A stretch of DNA of 64,000 nucleotides from Bacteroidaceae bacterium (GTDB lineage Bacteria; Bacteroidota; Bacteroidia; Bacteroidales; Bacteroidaceae). Below the pieces are notes generated by a model that worked only from the letters and a program-made list of their open reading frames with translations, did not search any database and was not told where the DNA came from. The stretch covers positions 1-64,000 of the forward strand of contig JAFYQQ010000004.1 of NCBI GenBank assembly GCA_017559845.1. Reading direction: 5' to 3'. Below are positions 35,736-52,207 of the stretch, piece after piece (position 1 is the first letter of the stretch; each line of letters opens with the position of its first letter). The position numbers and the translations under genes were made by a program.

Positions 35736-37184
35736 TTATTTCAACAGACGTGATTTTACGTTATAAAGTCTTTTGTCTGCGGGAACCCATTCGCCCGCTC
35801 TTGTCTCTTCTGCCGGCCAAGATGTATAGTAGGAAATTTCGTCTCCATCCTTGAATACTCGGAATACACCTTCTTCCATCAGTACGCCCTCGGGATCATC
35901 GCCCTTTTCCACCATTACAAAGGCATATTGCAGATTCTTCAGGCCTTCTTCGGTCTTGGTTCCAGACAGCAGAAGTGCGGTTCTGTTGTAAATGCCGGAA
36001 CTGGTTCCTTCGGTGTTGAAAAGGATGCTGAAGTTGTTTCCTTCGCCCACGATAATTGCACCTTCACCAATGGAATATGATTCACCGTCTGTTGTGAGTT
36101 CTTCCATGTCAATGGTATTGGCTTTCATGTCTTGGCTTGACAAGTTGATGTATTCACCCATCCATTGCAACTGAGAAAGGTCACCATCATAATCTTCCAT
36201 ATATATGGCCACCAAGGGGTCAAGCAGATAGCAGCCTTCCACATTGGGAGGATTTACACCATCGTAAATGGGAATATAGGGTTCCATCTTCTGGCGAATT
36301 TCGTCTGGGATAACGCTTTCAATGCGTTCGTCTTCCTGCCCCCAAGGAAGGATGTTGCCGGTAAAGCTGACAATCTCGTCCTTGTTGATGGTCAGGTTGA
36401 ACACCTGTTGCTTGCCCGAGGCCAGGTAAATATCGGAAGTAGCCTTCAATGTGTGTTCCTTTCCGTTAAGTGTTACGGTAAGGAAAGGACTTCCTGCTTC
36501 TATCGTCTGGGGGACGATGATGGCCTTGTAGCTGTTGGTGCCGTTGTCTGCAAAATATACCGTGTTACGGCTCTCGTATGCGGTAAAGGTGTTGGCATTG
36601 AGGTCAACATCGCAACCGATATTCACATTGTTCAGTTTCACTGAGGGAGTGCCAGTACCCAATGCTTCGCCTTGCAAGTTCACGACTACATGTGAAAGGC
36701 GGTGGCTGAACACCAAGTTTACATCCTTATCTGTTGTTACGTCCGAAACGGCTGTACAAAGGTCAGACATTGTATATTGTCCTCCTGCGCCCTGTGCTGT
36801 TTTAACAATGAAACGGAAAGTAGGTACAGAGTTTATAGCGTTAGGATACATAGCAAAATAGCGTACACCAAATTCCGTTGGACGAACAATGCCGTTCTGT
36901 TCGTTGACAAACTTGTTGCCTCGATAAGTGTATTTCACGTAATTGGCATAATTACCCGATGACTTCAATACAGTTCCATTGCCTTCATCCTTTACAGCAT
37001 ATACGATAATCTGGTCGTTTTCTTCAAAACTCGTTTCCGTTGCACGGGAAAGGGTTTTCATAGAAGCGGTAAATGATACACTCTCCTGCTTTTGTTCAGG
37101 ACGTACTTCTTCGCCATTGCTGCTGCATGAAGCAACAAGGACTGCGCTTGCCATGGCAAGCATTAATTTTCTGTAAGATAACAT
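35736..37184 (-). CDS. Fimbrillin family lipoprotein (Mfa-like), copy 1
   Basis: The 482-residue protein has a lipobox VASC (Cys20) and an N-terminal Mfa_like_1/fimbrillin region (residues ~35-285), including VSFTASMKTLSRATETSFEENDQI-type sequence, LVFSHRLSHVVVNLQGE and the closing SFTGNILPWG. The C-terminal ~195 residues are unrelated to the neighbour and rich in Asp and Glu. It is likely a surface or tip-associated fimbrial component. It lies 34 bp after the other fimbrillin on the same strand. Confidence 0.85.
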   Translation of the reverse strand: MLSYRKLMLAMASAVLVASCSSNGEEVRPEQKQESVSFTASMKTLSRATETSFEENDQIIVYAVKDEGNGTVLKSSGNYANYVKYTYRGNKFVNEQNGIVRPTEFGVRYFAMYPNAINSVPTFRFIVKTAQGAGGQYTMSDLCTAVSDVTTDKDVNLVFSHRLSHVVVNLQGEALGTGTPSVKLNNVNIGCDVDLNANTFTAYESRNTVYFADNGTNSYKAIIVPQTIEAGSPFLTVTLNGKEHTLKATSDIYLASGKQQVFNLTINKDEIVSFTGNILPWGQEDERIESVIPDEIRQKMEPYIPIYDGVNPPNVEGCYLLDPLVAIYMEDYDGDLSQLQWMGEYINLSSQDMKANTIDMEELTTDGESYSIGEGAIIVGEGNNFSILFNTEGTSSGIYNRTALLLSGTKTEEGLKNLQYAFVMVEKGDDPEGVLMEEGVFRVFKDGDEISYYTSWPAEETRAGEWVPADKRLYNVKSRLLK

Positions 37185-37218: not shown

Positions 37219-39054
37219 TTATCTATAGTCTTTGCCAATAGCATTACTTTCTGAGCCAGCAACACCATTTACGGTGCCTTCATTAATGTTGTTGTTGTAT
37301 GTGCCTACAAAGCCTTCAAATATACGTCCAACAATTCCACCGCAACGTTCACCTCCAGATACCGCTCCCTTATTTACACAATCAATGACAATATCATCGT
37401 TGTTCATAAATAGGGCGATTCCACCTGTGTCTGCATCCCAACTCTTTCCCCCCACAATTTCACCTTCATTTACACATTTGGCGATAATATAGGCAACTCC
37501 GATTCCTGCACATTCTCCGCTGGCACGTGTTACCTGAATCTTACCATAATTTCTACATTCTTTAATAACTCCATCCGTATTCCCGTCTCGGCCAATACCA
37601 GTTGCCCAAGTGCCACCTTTTATCTCGCCGTAGTTTACGCAATTCAATATTTCAGTCCCTCTACATAGTTGTCCACAAATTCCACTATTTTGACCGTCTC
37701 CTGATATATTTCCCTTATTTTTACATCTTTCAATATGCCCACCATAACTAATTCCACAAATACCTCCGACTCCATAAGAGCCTATTTCGTGTGTTTCAAT
37801 TATTATTTCTGATGAACAATTTAGAATCTTACAATAATCCCCAACCCCTGTTATAGCTCCAACGGCGTATGTCTCTTTGTTGCTTATTTTAATACTTCCT
37901 TCTATTAAATGAAGATTTTTAATGGTTCCATATGTTTTGGATACCAATCCCACACCATCATTTTGTATGTTGTGTTTTAATATAGTAAGCCCTTTCAACG
38001 AATGATCTTGGCCATTGAAGATTTCATTAGAATTAATAGTAGAAATAGGTTCCCAATTTTCAATAGAACTCATATCAATATCCGCATAAATATTGATTTC
38101 TCCTTTTTCATTTTTCCATCGAGAAACATCTTCGCCTGCATTGCGGGCATCACGGAAAGTAATAAGGTCTTCTAATGAATATATTCCAACTTTTTGTGTT
38201 TCTTGCTCGTTCTCTCCCCAAGGAAGAATCTCGCCGGTAAAGCTTACAATCTCGTCTTTCTCAATGGTAAGATTGAATACTTGTTGTTTGCCGGAAGTAA
38301 GGCGGATGTCCGATGAGGCTTTCAGCGTATGTTCTTTTCCGTTCAGACTTACTGTGAGGAATGCACTTCCGTCCTCAATGGTCTGGGGTGCGATGATTGC
38401 CTTGTAGCTGTTGGTTCCGTTGTCTGCGCAATATACTGTGTTGCGGCTCTCGTATGCTGTAAATGTGTTGGCGTTGAGGTCTGCATCACATCCCGTATTT
38501 ACATTGTTTAATCTTAAGGTAGCCGTACCAGTGCCAAGCAATTCGCCTTGCAGATTTACCACTACATGGGAGAGGCGGTGGCTGAATACCAAATCCACCT
38601 CTTTGTTTGATGTGATGTCCGACACTGCAGTGCAAAGGTCGGAAAGTGTATATTGCCCCGAAGCATTCTGGTTGGTTTTCACATTGAACTTGAAGGTTGG
38701 ACCGCACGGGGTTGTATACGGATATATGGCATAATAACGAAGCCCTGAGTCTGTGGGGCGTACAATACCTTGTGCATTAATGAACTTTCCGTTATTGTAT
38801 GTATAGCGTACGTTATCAGCGTAATTTCCAGATGGCTGCAGAATAGAGACCGTATTGGTTTGGGCGTTGACAGCATAGACGCCAATTTTGTCTCCCTCTT
38901 CAAAAGTGGTTTCTGTGGCACGCGATACCGTTTTCATGGATGCAGTAAAGTCAACAGTCTCGCCGACTTGCGGCATAATCTCACTATCCTTGTTGCTGCA
39001 GGAAGTTGCAAGGATAAAACTTGCCAAGGCAAGCATCAGTTTTTTGGATTCCAT
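37219..39054 (-). CDS. Fimbrillin family lipoprotein with GLUG-like repeats, copy 2
   Basis: The 611-residue protein has a lipobox ATSC and the same N-terminal fimbrillin domain as its neighbour up to SFTGEILPWG. From about residue 320 it carries six to seven ~40-residue repeats of the type GGICGxxxGGxIxxCxNxGxI, as in GLUG repeats of surface adhesins. ATG 39054 directly starts the signal peptide (ESKKLMLALASFILATSC). It is the first gene of the three-gene surface operon and lies 46 bp after the terminator of the structured leader at 39100-39524. Confidence 0.85.
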   Translation of the reverse strand: MESKKLMLALASFILATSCSNKDSEIMPQVGETVDFTASMKTVSRATETTFEEGDKIGVYAVNAQTNTVSILQPSGNYADNVRYTYNNGKFINAQGIVRPTDSGLRYYAIYPYTTPCGPTFKFNVKTNQNASGQYTLSDLCTAVSDITSNKEVDLVFSHRLSHVVVNLQGELLGTGTATLRLNNVNTGCDADLNANTFTAYESRNTVYCADNGTNSYKAIIAPQTIEDGSAFLTVSLNGKEHTLKASSDIRLTSGKQQVFNLTIEKDEIVSFTGEILPWGENEQETQKVGIYSLEDLITFRDARNAGEDVSRWKNEKGEINIYADIDMSSIENWEPISTINSNEIFNGQDHSLKGLTILKHNIQNDGVGLVSKTYGTIKNLHLIEGSIKISNKETYAVGAITGVGDYCKILNCSSEIIIETHEIGSYGVGGICGISYGGHIERCKNKGNISGDGQNSGICGQLCRGTEILNCVNYGEIKGGTWATGIGRDGNTDGVIKECRNYGKIQVTRASGECAGIGVAYIIAKCVNEGEIVGGKSWDADTGGIALFMNNDDIVIDCVNKGAVSGGERCGGIVGRIFEGFVGTYNNNINEGTVNGVAGSESNAIGKDYR

Positions 39055-39099
39055 TATTTTTCTTTTTTGTGTCATTATACGACCAGTGTTCTTTGACAC

Positions 39100-39134
39100 A
39101 AAAAAGACGTGGAATCGTTGTTGTCCATTCCACG
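39100..39134 (-). terminator. Terminator of leader A, with an alternative pairing
   Basis: On the minus strand CGTGGAAT and ATTCCACG form a perfect 8-bp stem, then TC and six T. CCACGTC of the same stem can instead pair with the conserved GGCGTGG about 80 nt upstream (39185-39191), so two exclusive folds are possible. Confidence 0.6.
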
Positions 39135-39524
39135 GATTGAGGCTCTTGCACTGCCCTTCTAAGTAGAACGGACAACGTCAGAGCCCACGCCGATATGATT
39201 ATCAATACCATAAATTGACTGCATTTACCTTGCTTCAAGAATGAAACAATGATATACAGACAATTATGGCTGTGATATAATCACACCCGGGACATCTACG
39301 TTGCCTTGCGCTCTGACTTAGAATGAGATGTTTGCAAGATTTCAATCCGTCAAAGACAAGACGTGGTAAACGCCTTAATTATGTCTGGCCTCCCTTTCCC
39401 ACCCAGTCCACCAGAGAAAGATTGATGTGTATCTTGCCATTCTCTGTTCGGCGTGGGTAACTTTGTCTTTCCCTAATAAAGAACGCGTCTTTTAACGGGA
39501 ATTATGGACAAAAGTCAGGAAGTC
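39100..39524 (-). ncRNA. Structured leader or small RNA, copy A
   Basis: The ~425-nt minus-strand transcript is predicted from a TAATTTTG box (39531-39538) to a terminator (39100-39134). It is homologous to copy B (46866-47182). Shared blocks are GGCGTTTAyCA, a CTTxGTyTTTGAC/GTCAxAGxxCAAG stem, TCkyGCAAAC, TAGATGTCC, and the 3' domain GGCGTGGGCTCTG. The shared reading frame found in copy B is broken by TAG here, so conservation is at RNA level. The fimbrillin operon starts 46 bp after its end. Confidence 0.6.
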
Positions 39525-39530
39525 CGAATG

Positions 39531-39538
39531 CAAAATTA
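39531..39538 (-). promoter_or_regulatory. -7 box TAATTTTG of leader A
   Basis: An identical TAATTTTGC precedes copy B at 47189-47196. Confidence 0.55.
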
Positions 39539-39749
39539 AGAGATTTTTATGAGTTTCCAAAACAAAGCGTCAAAAAATGTTAACGGATGTGCTCAAAACT
39601 CATCGTTTATGTATTTGTGTCCTGTTTTGTCATTTTACTAATATTGTAAAATATTTTTATTTTTCATTCTTGTATTTAAAAGGGCGGGTTATGACGAAAA
39701 AATGGTGAGAATTCCACAAAATCTGAATAACCCCCTAAATAAGGGTTTC

Positions 39750-46564: not shown

Positions 46565-46795
46565 CTATAAAATATTCTTGTAATGTTCAAAGAAGTCATA
46601 CTGCAATATTTGTGAGACTCTTACCAGTAACTCAGTGTCTATTGTAGACCGCTTGAACAGTTTGTAAACATTGGAGCGGTCGCAGCACAATTTTCGTGCA
46701 AACCAACTGACGGTTCGTTCCTGTCTTTCAAGTTCTTCCTTTATCAGACTGCCAATGTGCAGCTTGTTGTTCGACTGTTGATATAGCTCGTCCAT
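46565..46795 (-). CDS. Small XRE-like helix-turn-helix regulator
   Basis: The 76-residue protein is mostly one HTH domain: HIGSLIKEELERQERTVSWF, then ARKLCCDRSNVYKLFKRSTI (recognition helix region) and DTELLVRVSQILQYDFFEHY. It is cytoplasmic and DNA-binding by homology; targets are unknown. It stands alone, 70 bp after the U-tract of structured leader B, between the 41-bp array and inverted palindrome-rich elements. Confidence 0.8.
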   Translation of the reverse strand: MDELYQQSNNKLHIGSLIKEELERQERTVSWFARKLCCDRSNVYKLFKRSTIDTELLVRVSQILQYDFFEHYKNIL

Positions 46796-46865
46796 TACGA
46801 AAACTGACTATGCACTTGCAGCATCCCCAACAAGTTTTATTATGATTCGGTTTCTTGATTTGCAC

Positions 46866-47182
46866 AAAAAAAGCGCGGGTGCTGTATCTGTTACTCGTCT
46901 CGCTGCTCAAGGCGTCTCGCATTGCCCCTATTGTTTGACGAGCAACACGCAGAGCCCACGCCGTGATGTATATAGTTGCCCTCCATGTTGATGAAACAAA
47001 CAAAGAGGGTGCGTATAGACACACCATGCGGACATCTACCCGTTGCTTTGTCTTTGACAATAGATTCAGAGTTTGCGAGACTTTGAGCAGTCAAAGAACA
47101 AAGCGTTGATAAACGCCTTTTCTGTATATGCGCCCCCACCCATCCACTCTGCACTTTCCAATGCTGGTGATTGTGAAGAAGG
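46866..47182 (-). ncRNA. Structured leader or small RNA, copy B
   Basis: The ~317-nt minus-strand transcript runs from a TAATTTTG box to a seven-T tract at 46866-46872. It is homologous to copy A. The stem CTTTGTTCTTTGAC/GTCAAAGACAAAG is almost perfect here and covaries with copy A. GCGTGGG (46955-46961) pairs with CCCGCGC (46873-46879) directly before the T-tract, where copy A uses GGCGTGG with CCACGTC. The HTH gene follows after 70 bp. Confidence 0.6.
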
Positions 47183-47188
47183 CGGGTG

Positions 47189-47196
47189 CAAAATTA
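47189..47196 (-). promoter_or_regulatory. -7 box TAATTTTG of leader B
   Basis: It is identical in sequence to the box before leader A and in the same orientation. Confidence 0.55.
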
Positions 47197-47806: not shown

Positions 47807-50800
47807 TCAAAGCTTTTCTTTCTTTGACGTGGTCTTTTTGCTCTTCCGCTTTCTGAAGAGGTCTCTCCATCGGTTGAAGTCCTTCTTGAACTGGATGCCG
47901 ATGCCTTGCGTGGTGAGCGAGGATTGAATGAAGTAGCGGTCGTTGGTCTCGTTGTACGCCTTCAGAGAAATGGTGCCTGTGGGCGTGAGCAGATATTGCA
48001 CGTCAAAGTCGCCGATGAAGTTGTTGTTCGAGTAGACGCTCTCGCGATAGCCGAAGTTGCCATTGAAGAGCAGGCGGTTGTTGAGGAAGCGTCCGCTGAG
48101 CATGCCTTCCACGTCCAGTTCCTCCCAGCCCGTCTCTCCCGTGCGAAGGTTGGCGCCGAAGGACCAGTTACTGTTGCCCACCACATTGCTCATCATCTGG
48201 TTGAACTGGCTGCTAAGGGTGCTGCTGATGAGCGAGTTCATGGCGGTGCTGCTCTGGTTGGCGCCTTGCATGTACTGTGCGTTGTAGTTGTAGAAGCGTC
48301 CGATACCCAGCAGATAGATGGCCTGCATGTTCTTTTCTTCCTCGGTGCTCACCATGCTGCGTACCATCTGCTTTTCGTCCTCGTTGGCGTTGGGCAGGTC
48401 AAAGTCGAAGGATACCACCGGGGCAGAGGGGCGTCCGGTAATGTTCATCACGCAGTCCACTCGCGTATTGCTCAGTCCCAGACTGGTGGCACTCAGGTCG
48501 TCCAGCGATACGTTGGGCACTGTGTAGACAGCCTTCAGGTCCAGTGCGGCCTGATACGCATCGCCGCCGAAGGTGATTCTGCCGTTCTCCTTGAAGACGA
48601 AGTCCTTGCGGATGAAGTCCTGGAGCGATAGCTTGTAGACACCGTGGTTTACATGGAAGATACCGTACATGTTGAACTTTCCCTTGTTGTAATAGTCGGC
48701 CTTGATGCGTCCGTTTCCGTTCAGCGTGATGTAGTCGCCCGACTTGGGATCCATGATCAGGCGCATGCTTGCCTCGGGTGTGATGTTGAGGTCGAAGTTG
48801 AGTTTTATGTCACTTTCCTCATCGTCTTCCTCTTCTGCTTTTGCTGTGGTCGTTTCCTTGTCAGAACTGTTTTTAGTTGCGGTGCTGTCCTTCTTGGAAA
48901 CATAGGTGATGAAGCCGGCTTCGGTCAGCGTCTCGGGTGAGGTTACGTTATAGACAAACTGTGTGCCGGAGAGTGGTGTGCCGTTGATGTCCACCGATAT
49001 CGAACCGGGTTGTCCGGAGAGTTTCACATTTCCGTCGGCAAATACGGTACCGTAGAAAATTTCGTCGCCGAATTCACGGAAGTCATATCCCAGCAAATTA
49101 TATGCCTGTATGTCGAAATTGTACCGTAGGTTTTTCAAGTGGTCGTGCATCAGGTGGCCATTAATGGTGGCACGGTGTTCAGCGCTTCCCGGCTGACCCA
49201 GATTGTCATAGGCGGTGGCGTTGCGAATCAAGATGTTGTTGGGGCGCAGGATGACGCTGTCGCCATAGACGCGGTATTGTGTGCCGAGCATTTTCACGCC
49301 TAGGCTTGCCTCGTTCACCAGCACATCGCCCTCAAGGTTGATTTGCTTGAAGGGACCGAATATGCGTACCCATCCGCTTGCCCTTCCTTGCAGGTTGTCA
49401 AAGATGTCTTCTGTAAACTTGTTCATGAAGTACAGGTTGACACGCTTGGTGTCCACGCGAAGATCAATGCCGCCTTTCTGCCCCCTTCCAGGGGTGATGG
49501 TTCCCTGTACGAAGGTGTTGTGTTGCGCTTCGGGTTCCTGAATGTGTGCGTTCAGATAAATGCTGTTGCCGTAGTCGCCCCAGTTGCCGTGTACGTCCAT
49601 GCTGCCCATGTGTCCTTTGTTGAAGGTGAAGTCGTTCACTGTCAGATAAGCATCTGCCACAGGCTTACTCATCACTTGCTTTGCATAGATATGGCCTGTG
49701 GCGTTACCCGCAAACTCCACGGCGTTGAAATTTATCATTTGGAAAATGTATTCCAGGTTAATCTTGCTTAGCTGGACGGTGAGCGAATCTGTGCTTTCCT
49801 TTGATGCCCTGCCGTTGATGTTGAGATATCTGTCGGCTTGGCTCAGACGGAAATTGATGACATCCACCACTCCGTTGTGGTATTCAACTATAGAGGGGTG
49901 GAGGGTCCATGTGGTGTCGCTTACAACAATGTTTGATGCGTCAAACTTGGTGTGCAGAGCCAATTTGCCGTCTCGTCCGGTAAAGAAAATAAATGTAGGG
50001 TTAATCTGTCCACTTTGTTTGGGCAGTTTGCCGTTGTCCCAGTTCAGAATGGTGCGTATCTTGTCATATCCCATGTAGGTGTTTACGCCCAGGTCAACGG
50101 GGTGGCCTTTCATCATTCTTTGCAGTTTCAGCGATGATTGCAGCATGGCCGATGAACTCTGCATTTCCAGACTGATGTTTTTCAACTGCTCTTTGCCATA
50201 GTGTACTTGCGGAATGTCCGCATTGAGTTGTATTTGGTCATAGGCTCCGTTCATTCTGCCGTGGATGTGTGCGGTTTCGGGTATGCTAAGTGCCATGCCG
50301 GTCAGTCTGCGTACCAGCGTGGTGTCCTGCACTTCCATGTTGAACGTAATCTGGTCTGTGAGTGTGGCGGAAGGACTGCGGAAAATCTTTGGCAGATAGT
50401 TTGAGGCAATCTGCTGGAACACGAGTCCCAGATTTTTCCATTTGAACTGTCCTTTTATTGTGGCGCCCAGTACAGGACTCTCTATGCTGATGGCTTTCCC
50501 GTTTTCGTCGGGGGTGATGTCTACCTGTAAATTGCCGGCATCGCATACCCCCAGACTGTCAGAAGTAAGTTTTACACCGTTGATGCTGATGTTGCCTTGC
50601 ACATTGTCAATGTCTGTTCCGCTCAGTTCCGCCTCTATGTTTGCGTCAATTTGCTCGCCCTTGAAACCTTTCGTCAGATTCATGGCGTGTAGGTTGATTC
50701 CTTCTGCCTTTACGTTGCAATACAGGCGTTTGTTGTATTCTCCAAGGTGGAGTAGGGACTGGACAGCCAATTGGGCATTGGGGTCGTTATGATAAAGTTG

Positions 50801-52207
50801 CAAGCCGTATTCGTTTCTTGCACAATGTCCCGAGAAGGTTATGTTTTGATAGGGGTATTCCTTTAATATTAGCTCGTGGATGCTTCCGTTTATGATGAGG
50901 TCGGGCCGTTTGTCTTCAGCCTTTATCTTTCCTTTCGCGTTTACGGTCATGGACAGATGCTGAAGTTCCTTTTCCGCATTTCCTGCCAATAGTTTGCCTA
51001 TATGTAAATTCTCTATTCCCACCTTTGCGTCCACATCATTTCCCTCGATGAGTTTTCCTGCCACAAACACTTTTCCAAGAGCGGTGGATAAGTTCATTTC
51101 CGTGGTCAGTGTCTGTTGGGTATAACGGACGTTTCCTTGTGCTTCCACTTGTTCGAGGCGGGTCAGAATGGGACTGATTTCACGTGCCTGTCCTTCAAGA
51201 TTCTTTGTGATGAATTGTTGTATTTGGGGACTGCAAACAAGGGACTGAATTTCGGCTTTTGCTGTAATATTATTGTTGTAGTCCACATCTCCGTCAAGTT
51301 CCAAACTTACGTTTTGTTGTGCGTCATTCAATTTAAGGTTGTTGATTTCTAATATTCCGTCTTTTGACTGAAATTCAGTGGTTAATGATATTTTGCTATT
51401 CCAATGCTTTAACTTTGAAACAAATGCGGAAATGTCTTTCGGACAAACATTCAGATCAAGCGTTCCGTCGTATTTGACGCGCTTGAACCATTCCTTCATT
51501 CCGCCCTTCTCTGGCAACGAATCATAATTTGCCGTAAGCAGTGGAAGGGACAGTTCTGTGTCGGGCAATTTCATGCTGAAATCTTTCAGTTCCGCCTTTG
51601 TGGAACCGCCAAGAATCTTGAATCCAACATCGGAGAGTGTGAAGCCACTTTCCTCGCTCATGCTGAAGCGTCTCAGCTCGGCATTTATGCTGTCGGGAGT
51701 CAGGTGTCTTACACTTGCGTTGAACCCAAGGTCATTGATGTGAAGATGGTGTGGGGTGAACTTGCCCGGAGTATACGGCTTGTCCATTTGGTCGAACCGT
51801 ATATTTGCACGGCGTACCAGCAGACGTCCTATTTTCAGGTCTATGGGATTGCTTGTGGTGGTGTCCTTGCTTTTGAATGCGTCCAGCACAAACTGGAAAT
51901 TGGCTGCCTCTTCTGCATTTTGTTTGTATAAGGTGGCTTTTGTGCCGAACAGTTGCGCATTGTCAATTCTGATCTTGTTTTCAAGCAAGGGCAGAATTTC
52001 CACTTTTGCAGCCAGGCGTGCCACGTCAAGCATTAGCGTGTCCTGTTTGTCATACAACTTTATGCCGTCTATGATGACGCGGTTGAATATGCCTAACTTT
52101 ACACGCTGGATATCTACCTTTGTATCCAACTTTTCAGCCAGAAACCCTGAAATCGTCGCGGCGGCCCATTGCTGCATGTGTGGAATGTTGCTGAAGGCAA
52201 GCAACAT
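47807..52207 (-). CDS. tamB: Translocation and assembly module protein TamB
   Basis: This AsmA/DUF490 protein of 1466 residues from the first ATG is a periplasm-spanning beta-groove that helps build outer-membrane proteins or move lipids between membranes. The C-terminal TamB domain (~1000-1460) shows SISVDINGTPLSGTQFVYNV-type repeats, KGKFNMYGIFHVNHGVYKLSLQD, TVPNVSLDDLSATSLGLSNT and VEGMLSGRFLNNRLLFNGNFGYRES. It ends with a basic tail (RKRKSKKTTSKKEKL). The usual N-terminal membrane anchor is missing from this frame but is encoded just upstream (see 52208-52267). It is monocistronic and divergent from nqrA. Confidence 0.9.
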   Translation of the reverse strand: MLLAFSNIPHMQQWAAATISGFLAEKLDTKVDIQRVKLGIFNRVIIDGIKLYDKQDTLMLDVARLAAKVEILPLLENKIRIDNAQLFGTKATLYKQNAEEAANFQFVLDAFKSKDTTTSNPIDLKIGRLLVRRANIRFDQMDKPYTPGKFTPHHLHINDLGFNASVRHLTPDSINAELRRFSMSEESGFTLSDVGFKILGGSTKAELKDFSMKLPDTELSLPLLTANYDSLPEKGGMKEWFKRVKYDGTLDLNVCPKDISAFVSKLKHWNSKISLTTEFQSKDGILEINNLKLNDAQQNVSLELDGDVDYNNNITAKAEIQSLVCSPQIQQFITKNLEGQAREISPILTRLEQVEAQGNVRYTQQTLTTEMNLSTALGKVFVAGKLIEGNDVDAKVGIENLHIGKLLAGNAEKELQHLSMTVNAKGKIKAEDKRPDLIINGSIHELILKEYPYQNITFSGHCARNEYGLQLYHNDPNAQLAVQSLLHLGEYNKRLYCNVKAEGINLHAMNLTKGFKGEQIDANIEAELSGTDIDNVQGNISINGVKLTSDSLGVCDAGNLQVDITPDENGKAISIESPVLGATIKGQFKWKNLGLVFQQIASNYLPKIFRSPSATLTDQITFNMEVQDTTLVRRLTGMALSIPETAHIHGRMNGAYDQIQLNADIPQVHYGKEQLKNISLEMQSSSAMLQSSLKLQRMMKGHPVDLGVNTYMGYDKIRTILNWDNGKLPKQSGQINPTFIFFTGRDGKLALHTKFDASNIVVSDTTWTLHPSIVEYHNGVVDVINFRLSQADRYLNINGRASKESTDSLTVQLSKINLEYIFQMINFNAVEFAGNATGHIYAKQVMSKPVADAYLTVNDFTFNKGHMGSMDVHGNWGDYGNSIYLNAHIQEPEAQHNTFVQGTITPGRGQKGGIDLRVDTKRVNLYFMNKFTEDIFDNLQGRASGWVRIFGPFKQINLEGDVLVNEASLGVKMLGTQYRVYGDSVILRPNNILIRNATAYDNLGQPGSAEHRATINGHLMHDHLKNLRYNFDIQAYNLLGYDFREFGDEIFYGTVFADGNVKLSGQPGSISVDINGTPLSGTQFVYNVTSPETLTEAGFITYVSKKDSTATKNSSDKETTTAKAEEEDDEESDIKLNFDLNITPEASMRLIMDPKSGDYITLNGNGRIKADYYNKGKFNMYGIFHVNHGVYKLSLQDFIRKDFVFKENGRITFGGDAYQAALDLKAVYTVPNVSLDDLSATSLGLSNTRVDCVMNITGRPSAPVVSFDFDLPNANEDEKQMVRSMVSTEEEKNMQAIYLLGIGRFYNYNAQYMQGANQSSTAMNSLISSTLSSQFNQMMSNVVGNSNWSFGANLRTGETGWEELDVEGMLSGRFLNNRLLFNGNFGYRESVYSNNNFIGDFDVQYLLTPTGTISLKAYNETNDRYFIQSSLTTQGIGIQFKKDFNRWRDLFRKRKSKKTTSKKEKL

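Follow-up and report, generated by a model that had tools for sequence, protein, structure and literature searches.

A clade-specific leader RNA family of Bacteroidales with the layout of a transcription-attenuating switch

A structured leader upstream of a fimbrillin-like operon in a Bacteroidaceae genome belongs to a real, clade-specific leader RNA family, new as far as Rfam 15 and searchable papers show, whose action in cis is inferred from its layout. The succession of promoter, leader, terminator and gene, together with the sharing of nucleotides between the terminator and an antiterminator helix (beta), is shown by comparative data. The leader is best interpreted as a cis-acting, transcription-attenuating ON switch, a reading to which we give a probability of about 0.6 in the absence of transcript or ligand data. 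It is inferred that termination occurs in cells, that the ON state is the one containing a long-range kissing helix, and that the choice depends on a signal. An initial annotation had likened the layout to that of an attenuator or a riboswitch-like switch, and comparative evidence supports this, although transcription, termination and ligand sensing are untested. It had overlooked the kissing (loop-loop) helix, which seems to operate the switch, the 12 or more copies in the genome and the diversity of the downstream genes.

The leader and its genomic setting

The window is the whole stretch of DNA analysed, the first 64,000 nucleotides of contig JAFYQQ010000004.1. Two copies of the leader, A and B, are described from it as follows.

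39531..39561, minus strand: promoter of copy A, TTTG (39561-39558), N19, TAATTTTG (39538-39531), from sequence
39100..39524, minus strand: leader RNA of copy A, about 425 nt with an intrinsic terminator at its end (fold z, family model R1)
39379..39524, minus strand: variable 5' domain of copy A (long form)
39127..39134, minus strand: terminator 5' arm CGUGGAAU (covariation with 39115-39108)
39101..39115, minus strand: terminator 3' arm AUUCCACG and U-tract (sequence and covariation)
37219..39054, minus strand: operon gene 1, fimbrillin-like lipoprotein (Mfa_like_1, PF13149, E 3e-42)
35736..37184, minus strand: operon gene 2, fimbrillin-like protein (PF13149, E 4.7e-39)
46865..47196, minus strand: leader of copy B (TAATTTTG at 47196-47189; R1 E 4.0e-17; fold z -6.20)
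46565..46795, minus strand: gene after copy B, a 76-aa HTH-like protein (HTH_3 E 0.0097, under the curated cut-off)

Bacteroidetes promoters have the consensus TTTG-N19..21-TAnnTTTG. The minus-strand elements ahead of copy A, spaced by 19 nt, match this consensus, and a transcription start near 39524 is inferred from the sequence. Sites of the TAnnTTTG type precede nearly all copies, and in short-form copies they mostly lie 56-69 nt ahead of the GGCGUU core. The copy A RNA folds at -157.8 kcal/mol versus -108.0 kcal/mol for dinucleotide shuffles (z -8.63); the z of copy B was likewise obtained against dinucleotide shuffles, for 46865-47186. The copy A terminator, made up of the hairpin CGUGGAAU/AUUCCACG with UCUUUUUU behind it, has its end near 39101, separated by 46 nt from the fimbrillin start codon (39054). 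The proposal in the initial annotation of a promoter, an RNA of ~425 nt and a terminator 46 bp before a surface-protein operon thus held, by sequence and by the Pfam assignment of the fimbrillin-like genes. The homology that it had claimed between 39100-39538 and 46866-47196 held as well: A and B both score highly with R1, a covariance model that represents the 3' domain and is based on 26 copies (alignment A1) drawn from this genome and from BLAST hits. The 3' domain of copy A has an E-value of 2.4e-20. Both copies are among the 26 model-building sequences, and copy B was recovered independently by BLAST with copy D (E 4e-9).

BLAST with copy A reveals more copies on several other contigs of the same genome, in which R1 finds 12 strong copies (E<1e-9) and two weak ones. 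The weak matches (C7:3848-3937 and C4:16337-16428, E about 4e-5) are possibly degenerate copies or ordinary terminators. Copies A, E and F have the long form of the 5' domain; many other copies have a short one of ~60 nt. A conserved additional domain on the 5' side (GGACUYYC...UUGUCCAUAAUUCC...) is present in A (39379-39524), E (L025:2556-2700) and F (L026:2558-2700) and absent from short-form copies; it could be a second receptor module.

Several further features were observed around the two window copies. A 14-bp inverted repeat, CUUUUUUGUGUCA/UGACACAAAAAAG (39060-39108), links the copy A U-tract to an A-rich stretch before the fimbrillin start codon. It gave a spurious miRNA match in a relaxed Rfam scan, and might mask the ribosome-binding region in read-through mRNA. 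Upstream of copy B, on the same strand, lies a TamB gene (47810-52207; PF04357, E 1.1e-56). HTH-like proteins of 68-76 aa recur downstream of the leader, at 46565-46795 and at loci L126 and L193 (Parabacteroides distasonis).

Paired regions and their comparative support

The elements of the RNA are given below for copy A, in 5' to 3' order.

39448..39457, minus strand: P1 5' strand CCCACGCCGA (complementarity to UCGGCGUGGG)
39349..39360, minus strand: 5' strand of the middle hairpin (mu), CUUGUCUUUGAC (duplex versus strand-swapped controls)
39333..39339, minus strand: kissing strand K1, UCUUGCA, in the mu loop (pairs with K3; covariation)
39305..39317, minus strand: 3' strand of mu, GUCAGAGCGCAAG (duplex versus strand-swapped controls)
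39290..39304, minus strand: conserved joining segment GCAACGUAGAUGUCC (conserved alignment columns)
39184..39193, minus strand: P1 3' strand UCGGCGUGGG, with the terminator 3' arm as alternative partner (alpha) (GGCGUGG invariant; RNAalifold)
39165..39176, minus strand: beta 5' strand GUUGUCCGUUCU, antiterminator (covariation with 39131-39120)
39144..39150, minus strand: kissing strand K3, UGCAAGA, alternatively in a local hairpin, H1 (covariation)
39120..39131, minus strand: beta 3' strand GGAAUGGACAAC, which shares its first 5 nt with the terminator 5' arm (covariation)

K1 and K3 form a long-range helix between the mu loop and the beta loop, with 7-9 contiguous pairs in nearly all of 91 copies (strand-swap z 14.7). 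The helix exists in more than a dozen versions, mostly perfectly complementary and some 1-2 pairs longer on both strands. For example, UCUUGCA/UGCAAGA of copy A is replaced elsewhere by UCUCGCA/UGCGAGA, CUUCGCA/UGCGAAG, UCUGGCA/UGCCAGA, CCUGAGA/UCUCAGG, CGUAGGA/UCCUACG or UCCUAGGAA/UUCCUAGGA. In alignment A3, both sides have changed in 97 cells, compared with 32 in shuffled and at most 19 in slid controls. The mu duplex is itself stronger than strand-swapped controls (z 8.2, 88 copies). The paired arms quoted in the initial annotation, CUUGUCUUUGAC/GUCAGAGCGCAAG in copy A and CUUUGUUCUUUGAC/GUCAAAGACAAAG in copy B, are both present in the sequence.

Beta, which pairs GUUGCUCGUUC with GAACGRGYAAC, shows 23 double-change cells versus 8 in shuffled alignments, and the terminator 17 versus 5.6; in each case none of 500 shuffles scored as high. 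In 84 of the 91 copies these helices have 2-6 nt in common, and the three strands change together. Two partners, the terminator 3' arm and the antiterminator strand, covary with the same columns (74 and 75 of A1), which indicates alternative folds. With a mutually exclusive terminator and antiterminator, both conserved, the leader satisfies one criterion for an attenuating cis-regulatory RNA. Moreover, the frequent G-U pairs favour an RNA over a DNA element. The initial annotation had proposed covariation across many copies as a check; this was carried out and strong covariation was found. The pairings are not due to chance, since they recur in about 100 further copies.

The way in which the copies were collected affects some of these results. 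Presence of TCGGCGTGGG and GTTGCTCGTT was a condition for including the 120 pattern-derived loci, so that the invariance of these elements is partly imposed, and that of GGCGUGG in the alignments is partly enforced by the search pattern. Beta was judged on A1 for this reason. K1, K3 and the terminator lie outside the search pattern. Related copies inflate the shuffle tests; the count of distinct complementary versions is independent of that effect.

P1 rests on a different kind of evidence. A 5' element, YYCACGCCGA, is complementary to UCGGCGUGGG over 10-13 bp in about 41 of 74 copies. At least 8 pairs are possible in 48/74 copies versus 23% of shuffles, and a CAYGCC-type element occurs in 36 of the 74 5' domains (3.6 expected). 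P1 is undetectable in about one third of copies, and its support is complementarity rather than covariation because its 3' strand scarcely varies. The initial annotation had proposed that CCACGUC pairs either with a local hairpin arm or with GGCGUGG, and both pairings are possible. It had also proposed that ACCCACGCC, placed at 39448-39456, could compete for GGCGUGG. This element is real but lies at 39458-39450, two bases away, and the competing complementarity is longer than claimed (CCCACGCCGA/UCGGCGUGGG, 10 bp). With the 5' part omitted, RNAalifold prefers alpha, the pairing of UCGGCGUGGG with the terminator 3' arm. Mu, K1-K3, beta and the terminator are thus comparatively supported, and P1 by complementarity only. 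A riboswitch further calls for a conserved receptor domain with supported structure; mu, K1-K3 and the joining segments provide it, with the same reservation for P1.

Distribution and downstream genes

The family is confined to Bacteroidales in the searches made, and occurs in gut and rumen members of the order, ahead of hundreds of mutually unrelated genes with surface, regulatory and defence-like functions. With R1 at E<=1e-6, 50 of the 61 genomes sampled from the same genus are positive; at E<=1e-3 it is detected in 79 of 294 genomes across the order (about a quarter, weak hits included), with no more than 12 copies per genome; the best E-value is under about 1e-7 in ~40 of the 79. Among 296 genomes across the phylum, a search which doubles as a negative control, R1 at E<=1e-6 found none beyond the source genome. 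The E-values are rough owing to a short calibration, and some of the weak order-wide hits (E 1e-3 to 1e-6) could be ordinary terminators. Named genomes, most of them metagenome assemblies, were scanned with an exact pattern, which returned at least 120 loci, nearly all labelled as Bacteroidales, including Prevotella, Segatella copri, Xylanibacter caecicola, Paraprevotella xylaniphila, Phocaeicola oris, Parabacteroides distasonis, Muribaculaceae and others. A phage element was considered and rejected, the exact pattern being found in only 3 viral contigs compared with at least 120 genome loci.

A match to a known family, such as Bacteroidales-1, had been named in the initial annotation as what would remove novelty. 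Twelve copies (A, B and ten diverse ones) were therefore scanned with the Rfam 15 covariance models, Bacteroidales-1 included, and none matched at the gathering threshold, only tRNAs passing it. At relaxed E-values A and B gave short, chance-like matches far below threshold (eukaryotic miRNA and snoRNA models, among others). No matching description was found in the searchable literature on structured-RNA discovery and Bacteroidales transcriptomes; paywalled papers or supplements might contain one.

The leader lies between a promoter and a same-strand coding sequence, a location which satisfies the criterion for a cis-regulatory element. In 59 of 74 copies, versus 1 of 74 in shuffled DNA, an ORF of at least 100 aa on the same strand begins no more than 150 nt past the terminator, and the gene-layout controls gave 2 convergent gene ends and 8 divergent starts. 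The median distance from terminator to start codon is 73 nt. The genes themselves are very diverse, which argues that the leader is not a fimbrillin-specific device: 92 downstream proteins, in censuses based on individual loci, fall into 76 Pfam families, including BspA-type LRR (9), NusG (5), OMP barrels, PEGA, BACON and LytTR. In the source genome the downstream genes include those for fimbrillin-like proteins, DUF975, an HKD+Snf2 helicase similar to a candidate defence protein in PADLOC, and a NusG paralog with FHA and protein-kinase genes behind it. Such a mixture disfavours a metabolite of a single pathway and favours a signal of general reach.

Two loci sets deserve mention in their own right. 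Copy F (contig C50 of the source genome, L026:2558-5877) is followed by the only NusG paralog of the genome and by FHA-domain and Ser/Thr kinase genes. Several genes behind the leader have products similar to defence proteins in PADLOC, namely an HKD+Snf2 helicase, AbiH and a dynamin-like LeoA (L064:1693-3105, L114:2326-3225 and L145:4337-6055).

A switch model and its alternatives

Constrained minimum-energy folding of the 3' domain of 91 copies provides a thermodynamic argument for a switch. Without constraint, beta plus alpha forms in 59/91 copies and the terminator plus H1 in 28/91. With the P1 strand occupied, the terminator plus H1 forms in 82/91, and when K3 is occupied in addition, beta without the terminator forms in 79/91. 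In a properly folded leader, K1-K3 pairing would therefore turn stop into go. The test takes no account of kinetics or pseudoknot energy, and H1 is necessarily lost once K3 is blocked.

In the proposed mechanism, once the polymerase has passed the promoter, CCCACGCCGA and the later UCGGCGUGGG would close a receptor domain through P1, enclosing mu with K1 in its loop. By default the next segment would fold into the local hairpin H1, then the terminator would form and transcription would stop about 50-100 nt before the gene. If the receptor domain is active, that is, bound to an unidentified and widely available signal or factor, K1 would kiss K3. This contact would open H1 and release GUUGYYYGUUC, which would then pair with the terminator 5' arm (beta). 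With UCGGCGUGGG occupied by P1 and the terminator 5' arm by beta, the terminator 3' arm would be left without a partner, resulting in read-through into the gene.

One objection to this model is that alpha abuts the U-tract and could itself terminate, so that it is uncertain which of the alternatives stop the polymerase. The same RNA could work with the opposite sign, the fold with K1-K3 and P1 being a ligand-bound OFF state, or alpha plus beta the true terminator, and the signal turning genes off. Alpha plus beta is indeed the consensus fold of the isolated 3' domain and adjoins the U-tract, and sequence alone does not reveal with certainty in which direction a switch works. However, in 79/91 copies the terminator 3' arm has no partner when the kissing state forms together with P1, and this arm covaries with the 5' arm, whereas alpha is untestable because its other strand is invariant. 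The opposite sign thus appears unlikely. Less easily set aside is a switch governed by another cellular factor (an RNA-binding protein, Rho/NusA or a small RNA) without direct ligand binding, which overlaps the favoured model and remains possible. The breadth of the downstream set, with 76 Pfam families among 92 genes and no metabolic theme that would suggest a metabolite, speaks for it, as do several long, nearly invariant leader segments. Against it, no candidate factor has been identified, and ligand-binding RNAs are the ones that typically have so elaborate a receptor domain, pseudoknot included. Present data do not distinguish between a ligand and such a factor.

Three other explanations carry much less weight. 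LoaP requires a leader hairpin and an intrinsic terminator (PMC12691694), and the leader could similarly be recognized by a specialised NusG paralog of the LoaP/UpxY type for protein-dependent antitermination. The source genome has only one such paralog, located 5 nt after copy F, and in 5 of 92 cases the gene following the leader encodes a NusG domain. However, genomes with 8-12 leaders (G180, G255, G077, G091 and G285), and others besides, have a single NusG-domain gene, the housekeeping NusG. A paralog as universal partner is accordingly rejected; its absence from leader-rich genomes makes it more likely a target than a general partner, and the explanation as a whole is very unlikely. It is also very improbable that the RNA is a trans-acting small RNA of about 330-430 nt that lies before genes only by coincidence. 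Its own promoter and terminator and its large, stable fold would be consistent with this, but almost every copy lies at a tight distance (median as above) from a same-strand gene, these genes are mutually unrelated and as many as 12 copies occur per genome. Ribosome-mediated attenuation through a leader peptide is practically ruled out. An AUG lies within the conserved GUAGAUG segment in 71% of copies, but it is not universal and the frame that follows it has neither conserved length nor conserved sequence. No conserved upstream ORF was found in the leaders, whose ORFs are no longer than in shuffled sequence; the leader-peptide attenuator, for which a conserved ORF was the criterion, is rejected.

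Returning to the ON-switch reading, the leader resembles terminating riboswitches in its 5' position, its exclusive terminator and antiterminator with common nucleotides, its P1-closed receptor and a P1 3' strand with an alternative partner. It differs from them in having no identified ligand, no Rfam match and no common metabolic theme among its genes, and in an antiterminator apparently released by a long-range loop-loop contact. It shares with the T-box riboswitch (RF00230) ON-type antitermination, a long leader, long-range RNA contacts and many copies per genome, but there is no RF00230 match, the genes are not related to amino acids and the family is restricted to Bacteroidales in the searches made. 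Like LoaP and UpxY leaders, it combines a structured leader and an intrinsic terminator before accessory operons, and in the source genome it precedes a NusG paralog gene; unlike them, it occurs in many leader-rich genomes without a NusG paralog, and its structure greatly exceeds the small dfn hairpin in size (PMC12691694). Bacteroidales-1 (RF01693), Bacteroides-1 (RF01694) and Bacteroid-trp (RF01692) are structured RNA families of Bacteroidales/Bacteroidetes (PMC2864571), none of which matches any of the 12 copies scanned. Riboswitches for c-di-GMP (GEMM) also occur in many copies per genome before surface, adhesion and regulatory genes. The leader matches them in neither sequence nor structure, and there is no evidence for c-di-GMP as its ligand.

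A bolder reading, which we consider rather less likely to be right than wrong, is that of an undescribed, order-wide class of signal-sensing ON switch whose antiterminator is under loop-loop control and through which a single shared signal would coordinate as many as a dozen operons per genome, of surface, regulatory and defence-like function. The mechanism is open to direct testing, since K1-K3 pairing can be disrupted and re-established while promoter, terminator and gene are left intact. Both the human gut and the rumen are dominated by Bacteroidales, few of whose regulatory RNAs are known. If the model is true, a single leader family placed before fimbrillins, BspA-type surface proteins, LytTR and HTH regulators, a NusG paralog and defence-like operons would represent a global regulon read through RNA, and would offer a simple, reporter-based route to the signal.
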